Part shown: piece after piece, positions 38,580 through 49,414 of the stretch | How the letters are laid out: every line of letters begins with the position of its first letter | Numbering within the stretch: position 1 is the first letter of the stretch | Assembly: GCF_030378065.1 (NCBI RefSeq) | Contig: NZ_JAUCGJ010000008.1 | Coordinates: forward strand, 1-64,000 | Origin: Candidatus Venteria ishoeyi | GTDB taxonomy: Bacteria; Pseudomonadota; Gammaproteobacteria; Beggiatoales; Beggiatoaceae | Length of the DNA: 64,000 nucleotides | Direction of reading: 5' to 3' | The notes under the pieces: generated by a model | Told to the model about the DNA's origin: nothing | What the model saw: the letters and a program-made list of their open reading frames with translations, nothing else | Database searches by the model: none | Position numbers and translations under genes: made by a program

Positions 38580-40175
38580 ATGGAAAAATTTTTTAACAAT
38601 GCCGGGCCTTCGGTTCCCAGCAAGCACTATACAATTGATCCTCTGCAAAGGATTGATGTTGATAATATAGAAGCATTGATTGCACAAGAACGTTATTTTG
38701 TATTACATGCCCCGCGCCAGACTGGAAAAACCACTTGTTTATTAGAACTGATGTTTCATCTCAATAAACAAGGCAAATATCAAACTTTATATGCCAATAT
38801 TGAAGCAGCACAGGCTTTGCGTGGCGATGTAAAAAATGCCATGAACAATATTTGTCATGCAATAGCACATCATGCAAGTATCTATCTGAATAATACTCAA
38901 TTGCAGGACAAAGTAGGTGATTTATTAACTACAAATGCCAGCGGTTCATTGACAAGTTTATTGACTTATTGGACACAGGTTTCTGATAAACCTACGGTAT
39001 TATTTTTAGATGAAGTTGATGCTTTAGTTGGTGATACTTTAATTTCTTTATTACGCCAAATCCGTGCAGGTTATGCCCAACGCCCAACGGCTTTTCCACA
39101 AGCGATTATTCTTTGTGGGGTTCGTGATGTGCGTGATTATCGGATACATACCCAACACCAAGAAATTATTACTGGTGGTTCGGCATTTAATATCAAAGCC
39201 GAATCTCTACGTTTAGACAATTTGACTGAATCCGAAGTACGGAATTTATGGCTGCAACACACAGGCGAAACCGGGCAAACTTTTGATGACAATATTTTTG
39301 TCCAATTATGGGAAGATACGCATGGACAACCCTGGTTAGTAAATGCTTTAGCTTATGAACTGACTTGGCATAATAAACGCTTACGTGACCGCAATGTGCC
39401 TATTACTTTGGAAGATTATTGGCAAGCAAAAGAAAACTTGATTCAATCGCGTGCAACCCACCTTGATCAACTAACTGATAAACTTAAAGAAGCAAGAGTA
39501 CATAGTGTAATTTCCGCGCTATTATCTGGTAAGGTTACAGGAGATACCATTCCAACTGATGATGTACAATATGTGATTGATTTAGGTCTCATAGAATCTC
39601 GTCCACAACTGCGTATTTCCAATCGCATTTATCAGGAAGTTATTCCCAGAGAATTAACCTGGACACGGCAGATTACCATTGCTCATGAACAATCCTGGTA
39701 TCTCACTCCGCAGCGTCATATCGACATGCCCAAACTCTTGAGCGCTTTCCAGCAATTTTTTCGGGAAAATGCTGATGCCTGGATAGAACGCTTTGATTAC
39801 AAGGAAGCCGGGCCGCAATTACTGCTCCAGGCATTTTTACAACGCATTATTAACGGTGGCGGACGTATCAACCGGGAATATGGCCTGGGCCGCAAACGCA
39901 CAGATTTATTCATTGAATGGCCCATCAGTGAAGAAGACGGTTATTATGGCGCAGTGCAGCGCATTGTGTTTGAGTTAAAAATCCTTTACCAATCACTGGA
40001 AAGCACGGTTGTAGACGGCTTAAAACAAACCGCTGCTTATGCCGAGCAGTGTGGCGCGGATGAAGCGCATTTACTGATTTTTGACCGCCGCCCCGGCATA
40101 GCCTGGGACGATAAAATCTGGCAAGACCCAGCCCGTCATGTGGGGCAGCGCTCAATCAGCGTTTGGGGGATGTGA
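38580..40175 (+). CDS. AAA-like ATPase with C-terminal PD-(D/E)XK nuclease-like domain (copy A)
   Basis: A 531-aa cytoplasmic protein. The N-terminal ATPase has Walker A APRQTGKTT (45-53) and Walker B VLFLDEVDALVG (near 140). A helical lid follows. The C-terminal 110 residues have GLGRKRTDLFIEWP and RIVFELKI, matching a PD-(D/E)XK nuclease core (acidic residue, then ExK). Such AAA/PD-(D/E)XK proteins occur in many copies in Beggiatoa-like genomes; their role is unknown and may relate to mobile DNA or defence. It is nearly identical to the next gene except for residues about 66-135. Confidence 0.85.
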   Translation: MEKFFNNAGPSVPSKHYTIDPLQRIDVDNIEALIAQERYFVLHAPRQTGKTTCLLELMFHLNKQGKYQTLYANIEAAQALRGDVKNAMNNICHAIAHHASIYLNNTQLQDKVGDLLTTNASGSLTSLLTYWTQVSDKPTVLFLDEVDALVGDTLISLLRQIRAGYAQRPTAFPQAIILCGVRDVRDYRIHTQHQEIITGGSAFNIKAESLRLDNLTESEVRNLWLQHTGETGQTFDDNIFVQLWEDTHGQPWLVNALAYELTWHNKRLRDRNVPITLEDYWQAKENLIQSRATHLDQLTDKLKEARVHSVISALLSGKVTGDTIPTDDVQYVIDLGLIESRPQLRISNRIYQEVIPRELTWTRQITIAHEQSWYLTPQRHIDMPKLLSAFQQFFRENADAWIERFDYKEAGPQLLLQAFLQRIINGGGRINREYGLGRKRTDLFIEWPISEEDGYYGAVQRIVFELKILYQSLESTVVDGLKQTAAYAEQCGADEAHLLIFDRRPGIAWDDKIWQDPARHVGQRSISVWGM

Positions 40176-40386: not shown

Positions 40387-41985
40387 ATGGAAAAGTTTTT
40401 TAACAATGCCGGGCCTTCGGTTCCCAGCAAACACTATACAATTGATCCTCTGCAAAGGATTGATGTTGATAATATAGAAGCATTGATTGCACAAGAACGT
40501 TATTTTGTATTACATGCTCCACGCCAGACTGGAAAAACCACTTGTTTATTAGAACTGATGTTTCATCTCAATAAACAAGCTAACTATCATGCTTTATATG
40601 CCAATATTGAAGCAGCACAAATAGCTAGAAATGAAGTGACACGCGGTATCAATACAATTGCCAGTGTTATTTCCCGCGCAGCAAGTCTTTATTTAGATAA
40701 TCAAGATTTATTATCCTGGTTAGAGGCGTATCATGGGAAAATCAATACTGATGATTTGCTGAGTTCATTATTAGAACACTGGACAAAACAATCAGAAAAA
40801 CCCACTGTATTGTTTTTAGATGAAGTTGATGCTTTAGTTGGTGATACTTTAATTTCTTTATTACGCCAAATCCGCGCAGGTTATGCCCAACGCCCAACTG
40901 CTTTTCCACAAGCGATTATTCTTTGTGGGGTTCGTGATGTGCGTGATTATCGGATACATACCCAACACCAAGAAATTATTACTGGTGGTAGTGCATTTAA
41001 TATTAAAGCCAAATCGTTACGTTTAGGTAATTTGACTGAATCCGAAGTACGGGATTTATGGCTGCAACATACGGCAGAAACAGGGCAAATATTGGATGAA
41101 ACTATTTTTCCTCAGTTATGGGAAGATACCCACGGACAACCCTGGTTAGTAAATGCCCTGGGTTATGAATTAACTTGGGATAATAAACGCTTACGTGACC
41201 GCAATGTGCCTATTACTTTGGAAGATTATTGGCAAGCAAAAGAAAACTTGATTCAATCGCGTGCTACCCACCTTGATCAGCTAACTGATAAACTTAAAGA
41301 AGCAAGAGTACATAGTGTAATTTCTGCGCTATTATCTGGTAAGGTTACAGGAGATACCATTCCAACTGATGATGTACAATATGTGGTTGATTTAGGTCTC
41401 ATAGAATCTCGTCCACAACTGCGTATTTCTAATCGCATTTATCAGGAAGTTATTCCCAGAGAATTAACCTGGACACGGCAGATTACCATTGCTCATGAAC
41501 AATCCTGGTATCTCACTCCGCAGCGTCATATCGACATACCCAAACTCTTGAGCGCTTTCCAGCAATTTTTTCGGGAAAATGCCGATGCCTGGATAGAACG
41601 CTTTGATTACAAGGAAGCCGGGCCACAGTTGTTGCTCCAGGCATTTTTACAACGCATTATTAACGGCGGCGGACGTATCAACCGGGAATATGGCCTGGGC
41701 CGCAAACGCACAGATTTATTCATTGAATGGCCCATCAGTGAAGAAGACGGTTATTATGGCGCAGTGCAGCGCATTGTGTTTGAGTTAAAAATCCTTTACC
41801 AGTCACTGGAAAGCACGGTTGTAGACGGCTTAAAACAAACCGCTGCTTATGCCGAGCAGTGTGGCGCGGATGAAGCGCATTTACTGATTTTTGACCGCCG
41901 CCCCGGCATAGCCTGGGACGATAAAATCTGGCAAGACCCAGCCCGTCATGTGGGGCAGCGCTCAATCAGCATTTGGGGGATGTGA
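40387..41985 (+). CDS. AAA-like ATPase with C-terminal PD-(D/E)XK nuclease-like domain (copy B)
   Basis: A 532-aa tandem duplicate of the preceding gene, offset 1807 bases. The same Walker A, Walker B and ExK features are intact. The about 110 bases before the ATG are also duplicated (AACGGTATATAAACCTG and CCAGTATAGAGTTAACTC blocks), so both copies probably share promoter and control. From residue 66 to 135, between the Walker motifs, the sequence differs completely in most positions (QIARNEVTRGINTIAS against QALRGDVKNAMNNICH). The rest of the protein differs at only a handful of positions, mostly between residues 205 and 270. Confidence 0.85.
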   Translation: MEKFFNNAGPSVPSKHYTIDPLQRIDVDNIEALIAQERYFVLHAPRQTGKTTCLLELMFHLNKQANYHALYANIEAAQIARNEVTRGINTIASVISRAASLYLDNQDLLSWLEAYHGKINTDDLLSSLLEHWTKQSEKPTVLFLDEVDALVGDTLISLLRQIRAGYAQRPTAFPQAIILCGVRDVRDYRIHTQHQEIITGGSAFNIKAKSLRLGNLTESEVRDLWLQHTAETGQILDETIFPQLWEDTHGQPWLVNALGYELTWDNKRLRDRNVPITLEDYWQAKENLIQSRATHLDQLTDKLKEARVHSVISALLSGKVTGDTIPTDDVQYVVDLGLIESRPQLRISNRIYQEVIPRELTWTRQITIAHEQSWYLTPQRHIDIPKLLSAFQQFFRENADAWIERFDYKEAGPQLLLQAFLQRIINGGGRINREYGLGRKRTDLFIEWPISEEDGYYGAVQRIVFELKILYQSLESTVVDGLKQTAAYAEQCGADEAHLLIFDRRPGIAWDDKIWQDPARHVGQRSISIWGM

Positions 41986-42326: not shown

Positions 42327-42837
42327 TTTGGGTGGACTGCTGATTTTACTGAGTTTCAGCCTATTGTTTGTTCTGCCTTTGATTCCCTTACATAGCGGTA
42401 AAATTGCACAACTACCATTTGTTTTAGAACGCGAAGCACATTTTGTGCTGGTATTTTTTGGTTATCCCGGTTGTAACGAAGTTTGCCCACGGACTTTACA
42501 AAACCTGACTGAAATCTATCAGAATTATTCTCAGCAAGTTGCTTTGCAAGTGGTTTTTATCAATTTACATCCGGGTGCCTCCCAAGTTGCAATACAGGCT
42601 TATGCAAAAAATTTTCATCCCCATTTCCAGGGGGTTAATTTAACTGACCAAATATTGGAAAATCTAAAGTCAAACCTTGGTGTAACTGCAATAAAAACAA
42701 TGGACAAAAGTAATGATATTCTGCATAGTGAGCAGCTTTATTTATTAGAAAAATACAATAATGACTGGAAAATTAAAGTGATTTACTGGAACACTGATAA
42801 GTTGAGACAAGGCTTATATAACGATATGAATTCATGA
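42307..42837 (+). CDS. SCO1/SenC-like thioredoxin-fold protein
   Basis: A 176-aa protein started at the ATG at 42307 (MPKTRATLGG). It has an N-terminal membrane anchor (residues 8-27) and a thioredoxin-like periplasmic domain with the copper-binding CxxxC motif GYPGCNEVCP and the later conserved histidine (ILHSEQLYLL). SCO proteins deliver copper to cytochrome c oxidase or act as periplasmic thiol reductases. The stop overlaps the next gene's start by four bases, so it is coupled to a sensor kinase rather than to oxidase genes, hinting at a sensory or regulatory use. Confidence 0.78.
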   Translation: MPKTRATLGGLLILLSFSLLFVLPLIPLHSGKIAQLPFVLEREAHFVLVFFGYPGCNEVCPRTLQNLTEIYQNYSQQVALQVVFINLHPGASQVAIQAYAKNFHPHFQGVNLTDQILENLKSNLGVTAIKTMDKSNDILHSEQLYLLEKYNNDWKIKVIYWNTDKLRQGLYNDMNS

Positions 42838-44222
42838 TAATAAAACAACATTTTACAAAAAAACCACGTATTTCATTTTCAGAACGCCTGACCCAAGCTT
42901 TTCTTGAGGATTATCAGCACGTTGATAAAATGATGCTGATATTATTGTTTTTACACTGGTTTACTGCCTCAACTATCATGGCCTATGCTTATGGCCTGTA
43001 TACCTTGGGTTTTGTCGGTGGTGGGCTGGTGATGTTGATTGCCACGCTGGCTTATATGCTTTATCGCGGTACTGTGGTTTTTCGCATTATTGTGGGCATT
43101 TCCCTGATGTTGTTCTCAGCCATTTTTATCCAGCAGCATTTAGGGCGTATTGAGATGCATTTTCATGTCTTTATCGCGCTGGCATTTCTGATTCGCTACA
43201 AAGACTTCATCCCTCTGCTTGCTGGTGCTATCACAACAACTGTGCATCACGCGGTTTTCAGTTACTGCCAAGTGTATGACATTACGCTATTGGATATGCC
43301 GATTAAAGTTTACAACTACGGTGAAGGTTTCAGCATCACCCTGTTACATGCCGCATTTGTCGTACTGGCTGTTTCCGTCTACATCTATATGATTCAGTCC
43401 TTGCGTCAACAGTTTATCAAAAATATTCAATTTAGCGATACACTGGAATTAAAAAACCAGGAGATTGAACAATCAAAAATCGCACTGAAAAAAGAAAAAG
43501 AAAGAGAAGTGGCGGCTAATAAAGCCAAAAGCCAGTTTATCGCCAATATGAGCCATGAACTACGTACACCGCTGAATGCGATTATTGGCTACAGTGAAAT
43601 GCTGCGAGAAACTGCTGAAGAAGAAGCGCGGCAGGAAGACGTTACCGATCTGGAAAAAATTCATGTGGCTGGCAATCACCTATTAAGCCTGATTAACGAC
43701 ATCTTAGATATTTCCAAAATTGAAGCAGGGAAAATGGAGATTGCACCACAGGTGTTTAATCTTCCAGCTTTAATCGAAGAAGTTGCAGTCACAGCTGAGC
43801 CACTCATCCATAAAAATCATAACCAGTTTAACTTGATCATGGAAGATGATTTAGGTGAAGTGAATACTGACACTACAAAATTGCGCCAGATATTATTAAA
43901 CCTGCTCAGCAATGCCAGCAAATTTTGTAAAAACGGTAATATTGATCTCGATGTCAGTATGCAACAACAAGATAATGAAACCTGGATTAATCTCATTGTC
44001 ACTGATGAAGGCATTGGTATCAGCGAACAACAATTACAAAAACTCTTCCATGCCTTTGTCCAGGCTGATGCCTCAACCAGTAATCAATATGGTGGCACGG
44101 GTCTGGGGCTGGTTATCAGTGAGCGTTTTGCGCGTTTAATGGGCGGGCGCATTGAAGTCAGCAGCGAAGTGGGTAAGGGGAGTTGCTTTTCTGTATGGTT
44201 GCCTGTGGGTAAGATAAGCTGA
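42834..44222 (+). CDS. Membrane sensor histidine kinase
   Basis: A 462-aa kinase. Six membrane helices (about 35-190) include HMGH-like histidines (GRIEMHFHVFIALAFLIRYK, TTTVHHAVF), then a coiled coil, a HisKA domain with SHELRTPLNA (near 236) and a HATPase domain ([28 protein letters not shown]). No receiver domain, so the response regulator is elsewhere. The start overlaps the SCO-like gene by four bases. Membrane histidines could bind a metal, which would fit the copper-protein partner, but this is inference. The last codons and the stop lie inside a family B repeat element. Confidence 0.9.
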   Translation: MIIKQHFTKKPRISFSERLTQAFLEDYQHVDKMMLILLFLHWFTASTIMAYAYGLYTLGFVGGGLVMLIATLAYMLYRGTVVFRIIVGISLMLFSAIFIQQHLGRIEMHFHVFIALAFLIRYKDFIPLLAGAITTTVHHAVFSYCQVYDITLLDMPIKVYNYGEGFSITLLHAAFVVLAVSVYIYMIQSLRQQFIKNIQFSDTLELKNQEIEQSKIALKKEKEREVAANKAKSQFIANMSHELRTPLNAIIGYSEMLRETAEEEARQEDVTDLEKIHVAGNHLLSLINDILDISKIEAGKMEIAPQVFNLPALIEEVAVTAEPLIHKNHNQFNLIMEDDLGEVNTDTTKLRQILLNLLSNASKFCKNGNIDLDVSMQQQDNETWINLIVTDEGIGISEQQLQKLFHAFVQADASTSNQYGGTGLGLVISERFARLMGGRIEVSSEVGKGSCFSVWLPVGKIS

Positions 44223-44374: not shown

Positions 44375-44785
44375 TCACCCATTGGTTTCCAAACCCAGCG
44401 TATAAGCTGCCAAAAGCGCATCCATAAGGGATTTATTTTCTGTCTGCTTGTCAGTATCAAAATATTGCTGCACGATAAGCTGTAATTTATTGATAATTTG
44501 CTGTTTGCGCCATTTTTCTTCAAAACCCGGTATATCAAAGTCATGCTTATGACAGAATTCTACTGCCACTCCCTGCGCTTCACTAAACTCGATATCTGAC
44601 ACTTGCATGACTTCAAACAGATATGAATAGGTGTCGATATCATTGTTATTTGCAACAAAATAATCAAGGGCGGGAATATGGCCCGTGGTATCCATTAACT
44701 TATCCAGATCTAAAATGCTGGCGGGTTGATAATTGATACCTTTAAATGAAAAACGAAAAGTGACTTTAATCGAGTTTGCCATCAT
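44375..44785 (-). CDS. Unknown 136-aa protein translationally coupled to cbbO
   Basis: Not recognised. The start ATG overlaps the cbbO stop by four bases (ATGA), with a second ATG at once, so it is the last gene of the RuBisCO operon. The protein is acidic, soluble and has no signal peptide. The first half looks like a beta-rich domain (IKVTFRFSFKGINYQPAS, then DYFVANNNDIDTYSYLFEVM); the second half is helical (EEKWRKQQIINKLQLIVQQY). Coupling suggests a CbbQO accessory factor, but nothing in the sequence proves it. Confidence 0.8.
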   Translation of the reverse strand: MMANSIKVTFRFSFKGINYQPASILDLDKLMDTTGHIPALDYFVANNNDIDTYSYLFEVMQVSDIEFSEAQGVAVEFCHKHDFDIPGFEEKWRKQQIINKLQLIVQQYFDTDKQTENKSLMDALLAAYTLGLETNG

Positions 44786-47034
44786 TTAGTCAGACTCATA
44801 AACAGTTTGGGTAATTTTTCCGGCAGGCGATCAACATGATCGATGACTGAATATTGTCCACCAAAAATATCTTTCACATAGTCGTCAGCACGGGGATCAA
44901 GATTAATGCAATAGGTAAAAATACCGTCCTGATCAAGTTCCTGCACAGCCTTATGCGTATCCTGAATCAAAATCTGCTCATCATCCGTATCAATATCGGC
45001 AGGCTCGCCGTCGGTTAAAACCAGTAATAGCTTTTTATCGGCCTTTTGTTTTTCGAGGTAGTGCGCAGCATGGCGCATGGCAGCGCCCATACGGGTTGAA
45101 TAACCTGCCTGAATTGCAGCGAGCCGCGCCTTGACGGCATCATCCCAGCGCTCAGTGAAGCCTTTGATATGCTGATAACGGACTTCATGTCGGGTATTGG
45201 ATGAAAACCCTGCAATGGCAAATTTATCACCTAAATGCTCAATTGCCCAGGCCAGCAAGGAAACCGCTTCCTGGCTTAATTCCAGAATGGTTTGCTGACA
45301 GCCGTCAGGAATATCATTTAATGATTGTGACAAATCCAGTAATAACATGACTGCGATATCACGCCCATCATGCTTATGACTCATATTAATGCGTGGATCA
45401 GGTTGTGAGCCTGCTTTGTAATCAATCAAAGAGCGGATGGCAACATCCAAATCCAGTTCGCTGCCTTCTTCCTGATAACGCACCCGCACATATTGCTGTG
45501 GTTTTAAGGTATCAAGAATTTGTTTCAACCTTTTGGCAAGGGCGCTGTTTTTTTCCAGTAATTTGTCAATATCTGCCGCTGAGCCGGAAGGGTGCAGAGA
45601 TTCATATAAACTAACCCAGTCAGGGCGATAGCTGCTGGAGCGATAATCCCACTCCTTATAATGCCGGGGGGGCAAACCATCGACTTCAATGTCTTGTTCT
45701 TTGGTTTCGCGGGTGGCATCATAATCTTCTGCTTCATCATTTTCTTCAATAAAAATCCACATGTGCCGATTGTCATCACGATAATCCACTTCAGTATTTT
45801 CAAACCGGATATTGGGGGATTGATCCGATTGCAGCCGGGTTTTTGCAATAAAAGAGATGGCGATGGAAGCCATTTCCTTGGGGCTTGACTCGCCCTGTTG
45901 CATGGCGGCATAAAAACGTTCGACAAATTCTTTGATAACTGGATTTTGATAACCATGATCCGCATCTAAAATGGCGCGGGAAAGCATAGCCAGACGATGC
46001 AGAATACAGGATTCTTTTTGGGGTTCACAATCCCCTTCTATGGGGGCGGGGTGTAATGCCTTAAGGATATTGCGCAAGCCGGGGTATTGCTGCATGGCCA
46101 GATATTCAACCCGCGAGTCTTCCAGCAGCTCCACACCAACCCGTTGGAAAGGGCTGAAATTGTCGGCAATAATGGGGCTGGTCCAGCGCCGATGCGCCGC
46201 CATATGGGCAATGGTTGCGCGGTAGCGATCAATGCCTGGCACGTTATTTTTATCGTCGTAGACATCAGGCAGACGAATGCCCACATTATCATAATAAGGC
46301 CGGGGTTTGCGCAGTTCATCAAAACCCAGGGAATAAGGCACAAACTGTTCGGTTTCATCCCACAGTGCTTTCAGGTAAGCGTCAAGCTTACGCTCGTTAT
46401 CCATAAATAGAGTGCCATGACGCTCACGTTGCAACATGGCTTTACTGTCCGCAGATTGCAGGCAGAAATAGCTGGCCTGATAATCCGGGCGCATATAATA
46501 ATTGCGCACACCGTAGGCCATCCAGTTTTTCAGGCCTTCAAGCGATAGCTGGCTAAGCAGATAGGGAATTTGTTTGAGTAATTCAGGCAGCCCCGGACTG
46601 GGGATGGTTGCATTCTGGTTATTATGGATAGAACGACTGGTGTCATTCATCATTTCCACAATGAGTTCGATATAATGCTTGAAGCTATCTTCTGAACCCA
46701 GTCTGCGCGCAGCTTCTGCAATGCTATCCAGAAACAGTGGAATCGCCTTGCCATTGGGGGAGCGCGACATATCCCAGACCGTCTGTGAAACCAGGGTCAA
46801 AGCGTCTTCACCAACCTGATGAGCAACCGTGGGCATTTCTTCAAGATAAACCAGCACCGGCTCAAAGCCCCTGCCAATCATACAAATCAGGGAGGCACCT
46901 TTAAGATAGTCCTTAACCCCCTGAGGGCTTAATTGCCGCAGCGCATCGTTAATACAATCTTCAAAAATATTTTCGAGTTGAGCAAAGCTGCATTGCAGTT
47001 GATCACGATAAACCTGAATTTCTTCTGGAGTCAT
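44782..47034 (-). CDS. cbbO: CbbO, VWA-domain RuBisCO activase subunit
   Basis: About 750 aa. Adaptor of the CbbQO-type RuBisCO activase, which remodels inhibited RuBisCO. The C-terminal 200 residues form a von Willebrand A domain with the MIDAS motif DLSQS (in VMLLLDLSQSLND) and the later TDGEPAD. The long N-terminal region (QVYRDQLQCSFAQLENIFED) is typical of CbbO/NorD. I chose the ATG at 47034 with AGGTAA about 9 bases upstream; a TTG at 47109 in the same frame would add 25 residues. It follows cbbQ after about 96 bases and overlaps the next small gene by four. Confidence 0.92.
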   Translation of the reverse strand: MTPEEIQVYRDQLQCSFAQLENIFEDCINDALRQLSPQGVKDYLKGASLICMIGRGFEPVLVYLEEMPTVAHQVGEDALTLVSQTVWDMSRSPNGKAIPLFLDSIAEAARRLGSEDSFKHYIELIVEMMNDTSRSIHNNQNATIPSPGLPELLKQIPYLLSQLSLEGLKNWMAYGVRNYYMRPDYQASYFCLQSADSKAMLQRERHGTLFMDNERKLDAYLKALWDETEQFVPYSLGFDELRKPRPYYDNVGIRLPDVYDDKNNVPGIDRYRATIAHMAAHRRWTSPIIADNFSPFQRVGVELLEDSRVEYLAMQQYPGLRNILKALHPAPIEGDCEPQKESCILHRLAMLSRAILDADHGYQNPVIKEFVERFYAAMQQGESSPKEMASIAISFIAKTRLQSDQSPNIRFENTEVDYRDDNRHMWIFIEENDEAEDYDATRETKEQDIEVDGLPPRHYKEWDYRSSSYRPDWVSLYESLHPSGSAADIDKLLEKNSALAKRLKQILDTLKPQQYVRVRYQEEGSELDLDVAIRSLIDYKAGSQPDPRINMSHKHDGRDIAVMLLLDLSQSLNDIPDGCQQTILELSQEAVSLLAWAIEHLGDKFAIAGFSSNTRHEVRYQHIKGFTERWDDAVKARLAAIQAGYSTRMGAAMRHAAHYLEKQKADKKLLLVLTDGEPADIDTDDEQILIQDTHKAVQELDQDGIFTYCINLDPRADDYVKDIFGGQYSVIDHVDRLPEKLPKLFMSLTK

Positions 47035-47130
47035 TTGCTTATTACCTGCCAAACAAACGGTATTGAAAGAAGGACAAACACACAGTTTTGACCCTGCAAG
47101 ATTGGACAAAGCATAGCGGCTTAATGTCTT

Positions 47131-47940
47131 TTATGCGAAAATCGTATCAACCGCATGATCCAAGGTGCTGCGAATATCCACATCATCCGTAATCGGTCTA
47201 ACCAGCGCCATTTTGCAGGCGGCGGCAGGCTCAACACCCTCGGACATAAGGTTGGCTGCATAAACCAGCAAGCGGGTTGAAATCCCTTCATCCAGGCCAT
47301 GACCTTTCAGATTTCTTGCTGTTTTACCAATTTTCACCAGTTTTGCTGCGGTCTCATTATCCAGATCGGCTTCTTTGGCAACAATTTCCACTTCCACTTT
47401 GGTTTCGGGATATTCAAAATCCATAGCGACAAAACGCTGTTTGGTGGATTGTTTAAGATCTTTCATCAGGCTTTGATAGCCTGGATTATAGGAGATGACC
47501 AGTTGAAAATCAGGATGCGCCTCGATCAGTTCCCCTTTTTTATCCAATGGCATGGTGCGACGGTGATCGGTGAGTGGGTGGATTACAACCGTTGTATCTT
47601 GACGTGCTTCAACAATTTCATCCAGATAACAGATAGCGCCCATCCGAGCCGCTACGGTTAATGGGCCATCCAGCCAACGGGTGCCGTCTGAGTCGAGCAG
47701 GTAACGACCAATTAGGTCGGATGCGGTCATATCTTCATTACAGGCCACTGTAATCAATGGTTTTTGCAGTTTCCACGCCATATGCTCAATAAAACGGGAT
47801 TTACCACAACCTGTCGGGCCTTTGATCATGACAGGGAGACGGCGTTTATAAGCCGCTTCATACAGGCTTACTTCGTTGGACTGCTGCTCATAATAAGGTT
47901 CATCGGTAATTTTATATTGTGCAATATCAAAGTCGCTCAT
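47131..47940 (-). CDS. cbbQ: CbbQ, AAA+ ATPase of the RuBisCO activase
   Basis: A MoxR-class AAA+ protein of 269 aa that forms the hexameric motor with CbbO. Walker A GPTGCGKS (near residue 44) and Walker B AICYLDEIVEARQD are intact, as are NPGYQS of sensor 1 type and the C-terminal lid. I used the ATG at 47940 (MSDFDIAQYK) because GGTGAG precedes it at a good distance; a GTG at 47952 is possible. It lies 85 bases after cbbM, separated by a strong terminator-like hairpin. Confidence 0.94.
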   Translation of the reverse strand: MSDFDIAQYKITDEPYYEQQSNEVSLYEAAYKRRLPVMIKGPTGCGKSRFIEHMAWKLQKPLITVACNEDMTASDLIGRYLLDSDGTRWLDGPLTVAARMGAICYLDEIVEARQDTTVVIHPLTDHRRTMPLDKKGELIEAHPDFQLVISYNPGYQSLMKDLKQSTKQRFVAMDFEYPETKVEVEIVAKEADLDNETAAKLVKIGKTARNLKGHGLDEGISTRLLVYAANLMSEGVEPAAACKMALVRPITDDVDIRSTLDHAVDTIFA

Positions 47941-47975
47941 GACTGTTCTCACCAGGTGCTTGGAAATTGAAAGGC

Positions 47976-48025: not shown

Positions 48026-49414
48026 TTACTTGTGAACGCCCAGTTTGTCTCTCCAACCTGGGAACAAGGCATCAGCATCATGCTCAAATGATTCGAAAGC
48101 GCGTGCAAACTCTTTATGTTCTTTCGCGTATTCGATAGGATCAGCACCTGTTTTCCAGCAATCATAAGCCTGTTTTAATGAGGCTGCACCAGCTGCCGGG
48201 CTGTCAATATGACCGTAAGAACCACCACCGGAAGTGTTGATAACGTTACCATGACCCAGGTTCTCAAAGAAGCCAGGCAGGCGCAACGCATTCATGCCAC
48301 CAGAGATAATGGGTGTGGTTGGTTTCATGCCATACCATTTCTGATAGTAGAAAGGTCCCTGACACTCATCACGTTCAATCATGTAAGCGATGACTTTATC
48401 GGAAGCATCACCTTCCATTTTGCCATAACCCATAGTACCTACATGGATACCGGAAGCACCTTGTAGACGAGACATCTTAGCCAATACAAATGCGGTATAA
48501 CCACGTTTTGAAGAAGGCGAAGTCACTGCACCGTGGCCTGCACGATGATAATGCAAGTACTGACCAGGGTAATTACGGCGTGCTGTGGTCACCATGCCAG
48601 GGCCACCAACATAACCGTCAACCAGGAAAGCAACCTGAGAGGCGTTTTCACCGAAGGCTTCCAGGATGTAGTCAGCGCGGGCGCACATTTCATGATGGTC
48701 ATCAGCAGTGATGTTAGCTGAGAACAGCTTGGTTTCACCGGTTTCATCCTGTGCGCGGTTCATCGCATCGACCACTAAAGGAATAACCTTTTTCATGGGA
48801 CAGAAAACCTGGTTACCTTGAGGCTCATCATTTTTAATGAAGTCGCCACCCAGCCAGAATTGATAAGCCGCTTCCGCAAAGGGTTCAGGGCGCAGGCCCA
48901 GCTTAGGCTTAATAATCGTACCGGCGATGTAACCACCATTTTCAACTGGACGACCCAGCATACGCCACATATCAGAGATATCCATGGCAGGGCCGTCAAA
49001 TAAGCGCATCAACTTAGGTGGAACATAAAAATCTCGCATTTGAGAATTTTTAATATCACCCATACCCTGGTTGTTACCAATACACAGGGTCAAAAATGAA
49101 ACCAGCATGGTGCGGCCATCAATCACATTGCGATCGAACAAGTCGATAGGATATGCAATCTTCATGATGCCTTTGGCTTCATCAATGAAGTAAACCAGTG
49201 CATCAACGCCTTTGGTAAAGTCATCCGTGGTAGAGACTTCTACATTGGTACCGGTGGAAGATTCTGCCGCAAAGTGGGCTGCAGCTTCCAGGTAACCATA
49301 ACCTTCAGCAGGTTCCATATGGTATGCAACCAATATGTGTTTACCATCAGCCAGCAAATTTTCTTCATTCAAGCTCAGGTCGGAATAACGACCCGTTTGA
49401 TCCAATAATGCCAT
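48026..49414 (-). CDS. cbbM: Ribulose-bisphosphate carboxylase, form II
   Basis: A 462-aa form II RuBisCO, the CO2-fixing enzyme of the Calvin cycle, with no small subunit gene. Catalytic motifs are visible: [11 protein letters not shown] (K near 166), the carbamylated lysine in [14 protein letters not shown] (near 191), HYHRAGHGA and [11 protein letters not shown] for phosphate binding, and [16 protein letters not shown] good ribosome site (AAAGGA) is 7 bases before the ATG. It heads the operon cbbM-cbbQ-cbbO-orf136. No cbbR regulator is adjacent. Form II enzymes have low CO2/O2 selectivity and suit low-oxygen or CO2-rich habitats. Confidence 0.98.

Follow-up and report, generated by a model that had tools for sequence, protein, structure and literature searches.

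A fast-evolving protein family attached to the form II Rubisco-CbbQO module: a candidate accessory of the activase

The form II Rubisco operon of Candidatus Venteria ishoeyi located in the window (i.e., the whole 64,000-nucleotide stretch of DNA analyzed here) ends with a small gene placed after cbbM, cbbQ and cbbO, which raises the question of whether its product takes part in the activation of Rubisco. Much of the dark CO2 fixation in vents, iron mats and animal symbionts relies on form II Rubisco, and CbbQO, to our knowledge one of only three known types of Rubisco activase, has been treated as a two-protein machine. The distribution of the terminal gene suggests a third, undescribed helper of this Rubisco repair machinery in many sulfur- and iron-oxidizing bacteria. 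Judging from genomics only, we give about an even chance to the reading that its product is an accessory to the form II Rubisco-CbbQO module, optional across genomes, which most likely serves the CbbQO activase as an adaptor or modulator.

The four genes are encoded on the minus strand and are followed by a histidine kinase gene on the opposite strand (Table 1). A preliminary description of the locus had proposed a frame of 136 amino acids that overlaps cbbO by four bases, closes the operon and belongs to no recognized family, and these points were confirmed: the frame starts with an ATG whose ATGA shares 4 bases with the cbbO stop, it is the last gene of the operon, and its product reached the cut-off of no Pfam or NCBIfam family. 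As most relatives begin at the second methionine, the true start may be located there, with a 1-base overlap. Likewise, the alignments of homologs begin at Met26 of CbbO and Met5 of CbbQ, so these genes probably start at the ATG codons in positions 47034 and 47940, respectively. The VWA domain was the sole Pfam domain of CbbO, consistent with its identity, and cbbM was the only Rubisco gene found in this genome (98.8% complete). In the same Pfam scan that matched CbbQ and CbbO, the AAA+ (PF07728/PF08406) and VWA (PF00092) domains were absent from the terminal protein; the Rubisco small subunit (PF00101) was unmatched by it at E ≤ 1, and a weak Antiterm match was discarded as chance. Small-subunit-like, activase-like and known-chaperone identities were rejected, as they have no sequence support. 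Elsewhere in the window, two tandem paralogous ATPase-like proteins are near-identical for the most part and divergent at approximately residues 65-130, a pattern suggestive of local exchange or diversification of sequence.

Table 1. Location of the form II Rubisco operon and of other features of the window.
Feature	Coordinates	Strand	Remarks
cbbM, form II Rubisco	48026..49414	-	Pfam/NCBIfam
cbbQ, MoxR AAA+ ATPase	47131..47952	-	PF08406 and PF07728; Pfam/NCBIfam
cbbO, VWA-domain subunit of CbbQO Rubisco activase	44782..47109	-	VWA domain
Terminal gene	44375..44785	-	Acidic 136-aa protein, operon end; start possibly second Met, 44782
Histidine kinase	42834..44222	+	Past the terminal gene
ATPase-like paralog 1	38580..40175	+	~532 aa
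ATPase-like paralog 2	40387..41985	+	~532 aa

Searches with the single sequence yielded no convincing homolog in the genome contigs, 58 relatives, 47 GTDB pattern hits or a plasmid collection. The sole approach that worked was seeding from genes adjoining cbbO in other genomes; for this, CbbO was searched in 369 genomes of the window's class and the neighboring genes were inspected. Proteins 25-39% identical to the terminal protein were encoded in 8 of the 29 other cbbO loci of the class, 6 of them directly after cbbO and 2 between cbbQ and cbbO (L027 and L037). A profile built from these neighbors retrieved 182 relatives in a GTDB scan, 80 of which were examined, and the carriers include Thiodiazotropha, Methylophaga-like, Thiotrichaceae, Gallionella, Sideroxydans, Thiobacillus, Sedimenticola and tubeworm symbionts. 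The edge of the family is sharp, as the class result was the same with a 96-sequence profile; large frames in two genomes (G223 and G037, with E of 0.003 and 9e-4) were rejected as chance matches. Conserved features comprise F-x-F-K-G, L-D, A45, D-x-Y-S-Y-x-Y-E-x-M, G72, D84 and a C-terminal A-L-x-x-A-Y-x-x-G, and the proteins are acidic, with a median pI of 4.7 and a net charge of -10. The number of relatives, together with dN/dS values between close relatives that are mostly 0.05-0.3, indicates that the terminal gene is not a chance frame; the family is conserved, fast-evolving and under purifying selection. Nothing but scattered chance matches emerged when 96 members were scanned against PHROGs and NCBIfam, and we found no description of a third gene of cbbMQO operons in the open-licence literature, while one may exist elsewhere. 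The terminal gene thus represents a protein family that is new, although the system it accompanies is known.

AlphaFold2 models of two different members agree with each other (mean pLDDT of 89.5 and 92.8) and predict antiparallel strands at residues 5-26, three short helices, a strand at 64-71 and helices at 85-108 and 118-135, so that the beta-rich first half and helical second half proposed earlier hold broadly in the models. Foldseek returned nothing with E below 0.1 against the PDB and a viral library, and VIA-align gave a Z of at most 4.2, with the ArdA N-terminal domain as the top result for both models; on these grounds we claim neither an old nor a new fold. A profile search of PDB sequences gave no match, and the RbcS, Raf1, RbcX and PCD folds were absent among the fold-search results, an absence that excludes nothing.

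With form II-type CbbO defined by an E below 1e-180, the family was present in 25/55 genomes of the class that carry it versus 0/314 that do not (Fisher p = 7e-24, phylogeny ignored), and the 25 carriers span 18 family codes and therefore do not correspond to a single clade. All 25 have a CbbQ-bearing Rubisco system, as do most other carriers, the few in which Rubisco was not found being incomplete assemblies. The gene adjoins cbbO in 13 of them (2 degraded), is divergent from cbbM in 1 (L136), and is found elsewhere or on another contig in the remaining 11 (1 as a fragment only). Since the family is missing from roughly every second genome with form II-type CbbO, the gene is optional, and no shared substitute gene was observed after cbbO in the genomes lacking it. 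Among the 65 class genomes with cbbM, members were detected in 24/53 with form II-type CbbO and in 0/12 without it (p = 0.0024, phylogeny ignored).

Mapped onto a tree of 93 CbbO sequences, the gene requires a minimum of 14 changes to account for its presence or absence and a minimum of 6 for its position, adjacent or unlinked, implying that it has often been lost or gained and often moved, with CbbQO staying in place; furthermore, frameshifted or interrupted copies directly after cbbO in G144 (L146/L150) and G307 (L147/L151) point to ongoing loss. The gene also evolves much faster than its operon neighbors, with a median identity over 13 operons of 0.38, versus 0.85 for cbbM, 0.84 for cbbQ and 0.70 for cbbO. 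In these operons, its pairwise identities track those of CbbO (rho 0.61) and CbbQ (0.59), and hardly those of CbbM (0.19). At one locus (L047, 6747-9408), the gene after cbbO has been replaced by one from a different lineage: it shares 83% identity with its counterpart in L050, whereas CbbO shares 85% with the CbbO of the window and 68% with that of L050, and cbbM and cbbQ are also near those of the window. Such an exchange speaks against an interface under tight co-evolution.

These observations bear on a first alternative, namely that the protein acts on CbbM itself, much as RbcX, Raf1 and acRAF do on form I, as a chaperone or in assembly or stability, and independently of the CbbQO cycle. 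All linkages are indeed to the cbbM locus, including the arrangements divergent from cbbM without an adjoining cbbO (L136 and the LysR arrangement of family code f200, see below). However, the absence of the family from the 12 cbbM genomes without form II-type CbbO, the poor tracking of CbbM identities, and the fact that Acidithiobacillus CbbM was obtained functional in E. coli without a family protein (PMC4660213) make such a role rather unlikely.

Beyond the window's class, a sample of the phylum revealed the family in 49 genomes of a single family code, f200, whose class, judging from cbbM and the iron-oxidizer literature, is probably Zetaproteobacteria; form II Rubisco has been reported in such iron-oxidizer genomes (PMC4643136). 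In f200, a LysR-family regulator gene (PF00126 and PF03466) diverges from cbbM, and the family gene lies directly 3' of the regulator gene, usually overlapping it by 4 bases; this arrangement was present in 7/20 unselected and 4/8 selected loci. The association with CbbO is modest in this group (35/46 versus 7/15, p = 0.05), and several exceptions are incomplete assemblies. One f200 genome encodes an APH/EcKL-like kinase (338 amino acids) between cbbO and the family member (L219, 4469-8162). The coupling to the LysR gene favors a second alternative, in which the protein is a regulatory partner linking Rubisco status to transcription; the CbbR-type LysR protein encoded divergently from cbbM, for instance, might have it as a ligand or protein partner. 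We consider this improbable, given that coupling in the window's class is to cbbO, that the window holds no LysR gene divergent from cbbM, and that the terminal protein matched no DNA-binding family.

Altogether, four arrangements at Rubisco loci were recognized: after cbbO and between cbbQ and cbbO, both within cbbMQO operons of several lineages, divergent from cbbM, and overlapping the LysR gene divergent from cbbM (f200). In about half of the carriers the gene is located elsewhere in the genome. No cbbO was nearby in 56 of the 80 GTDB loci; 50 of those genomes were searched, and 44 contained form II-type CbbO, 1 more cbbM, 3 form I Rubisco only, and 2 no Rubisco. The carriers in which no Rubisco was found (G402 and G423) are both incomplete assemblies, and in the form I-only carriers (G417, G422, G435, G500 and G587, the last two from f200) cbbQ directly follows cbbLS. 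Hence, genomes that carry the family but no CbbQ-bearing Rubisco system are very rare. At a further locus (L101, 317-3240), a member is convergent with a form I-like operon ~180 bp away, whose CbbO is only 38% identical, a hint that the association of the protein extends beyond form II. The least probable explanation is a marker of microaerophilic sulfur and iron oxidation as a life style, its function being unrelated and its proximity to cbb genes opportunistic: the named carriers largely belong to sulfur- and iron-oxidizer lineages and their symbionts, half of the copies are unlinked and in lineage-specific housekeeping neighborhoods, and the CbbO association within f200 is weak, but four Rubisco-locus arrangements in two classes together with the 0/314 are hard to obtain by life style alone. 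A shared microaerophilic chemolithotrophic life style may nonetheless be partly behind the co-occurrence.

The functional claims of the preliminary description fared unevenly in view of these data. The proposal of an undescribed accessory agrees with the homologs in other cbbMQO operons and the 25/55 versus 0/314 distribution, but reading it as an activase in the sense of a motor finds no support, as AAA+ and VWA are lacking. Surveying cbbQO operons, as had been suggested, did recover the gene in others, yet of the genomes encoding form II-type CbbO, only about one in two carries it; its presence where form II genes are missing, named as contrary evidence, was limited to a few genomes, namely five that have form I Rubisco with cbbQ behind it, plus some incomplete assemblies in which Rubisco was not found. 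The idea that coupling implies stoichiometric production was not supported, as many genomes have the gene away from cbbO; it is further undercut by the overlap with the LysR gene in another class and by CbbQ and CbbO, themselves operon neighbors, which assemble at about 6:1 (CbbQ6O1; PMC4660213).

The conservation of the family, its repeated placement at form II loci and its near-restriction to genomes with CbbQ-bearing Rubisco are the basis for reading the protein as an optional accessory. Small, acidic and soluble, it would serve the module in which CbbQO activates CbbM, the form II Rubisco, and act in the same process as CbbQO. As an adaptor or modulator, it would bind CbbO or the CbbQO complex, or its docking on inhibited CbbM, and binding would change the efficiency of inhibitor removal under some conditions. 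As an activase, CbbQO frees Rubisco from inhibitors, and the MIDAS of CbbO engages Glu75 of CbbM (PMC4660213); with an acidic Rubisco residue reportedly engaged in this manner, the D-x-Y-S-Y-x-Y-E-x-M motif and the acidity of the family make a docking role plausible, although this is speculation. The protein cannot be essential in every form II CbbQO, as the Acidithiobacillus Q2O2-CbbM pair is active in vitro with no third protein described (PMC4660213), and the nine ORFs described for a Thiomicrospira-like cbbMQO cluster include no such gene (PMC5506194). Counting against an adaptor are the roughly half of form II CbbQO genomes without the family, its fast evolution, the exchange at L047, the coupling of the f200 gene to a regulator rather than to cbbO, and the carriers G402 and G423, incomplete assemblies in which no Rubisco was found. 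More tentatively, and with something short of an even chance, the protein may be a third CbbQO component, i.e., an optional adaptor by which sulfur- and iron-oxidizers adjust the activase to form II Rubisco and which, via the LysR coupling in another class, ties Rubisco repair to cbbM expression. If true, a conserved third protein would alter the way in which CbbQO is reconstituted and might account for activity that differs in vitro and in the cell; it would also be an obvious part to include when form II Rubisco is transferred into new hosts.

Regarding known systems, the N-terminal domain of ArdA, compared by fold only, ranked first in VIA-align for both models (Z 4.2 over 66-67 residues, rmsd 3.2-3.6, only residues 2-97 spanned) and is likewise acidic, but this Z is far below a meaningful level, identity is 4-6%, and no ArdA family match was obtained. 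DUF6900 (PF21841) shows a weak likeness to the C-terminal ~40 residues in 66/96 members (best E 2.6e-5, in one member); however, members inspected singly scored at best 21.5 bits, below the curated cut-off of 24.1, the terminal protein of the window gave no Pfam match to it, and the N-terminal sheet and YSY motif of the family lie outside it. RbcX, Raf1 and acRAF are assembly or accessory factors of form I Rubisco, and share with the family a small size, encoding in or near Rubisco operons and an optional presence across lineages, whereas our protein has no Pfam match above cut-off and is associated with form II, for which no factor of this type was described in the literature searched. In contrast to the subunits of the CbbQO activase, it has neither AAA+ nor VWA, and it is not described in the CbbQ6O1 complex (PMC4660213); nevertheless, it shares with them the same operon and the same genomes, and the tightest phylogenetic association of the family is with form II-type CbbO.
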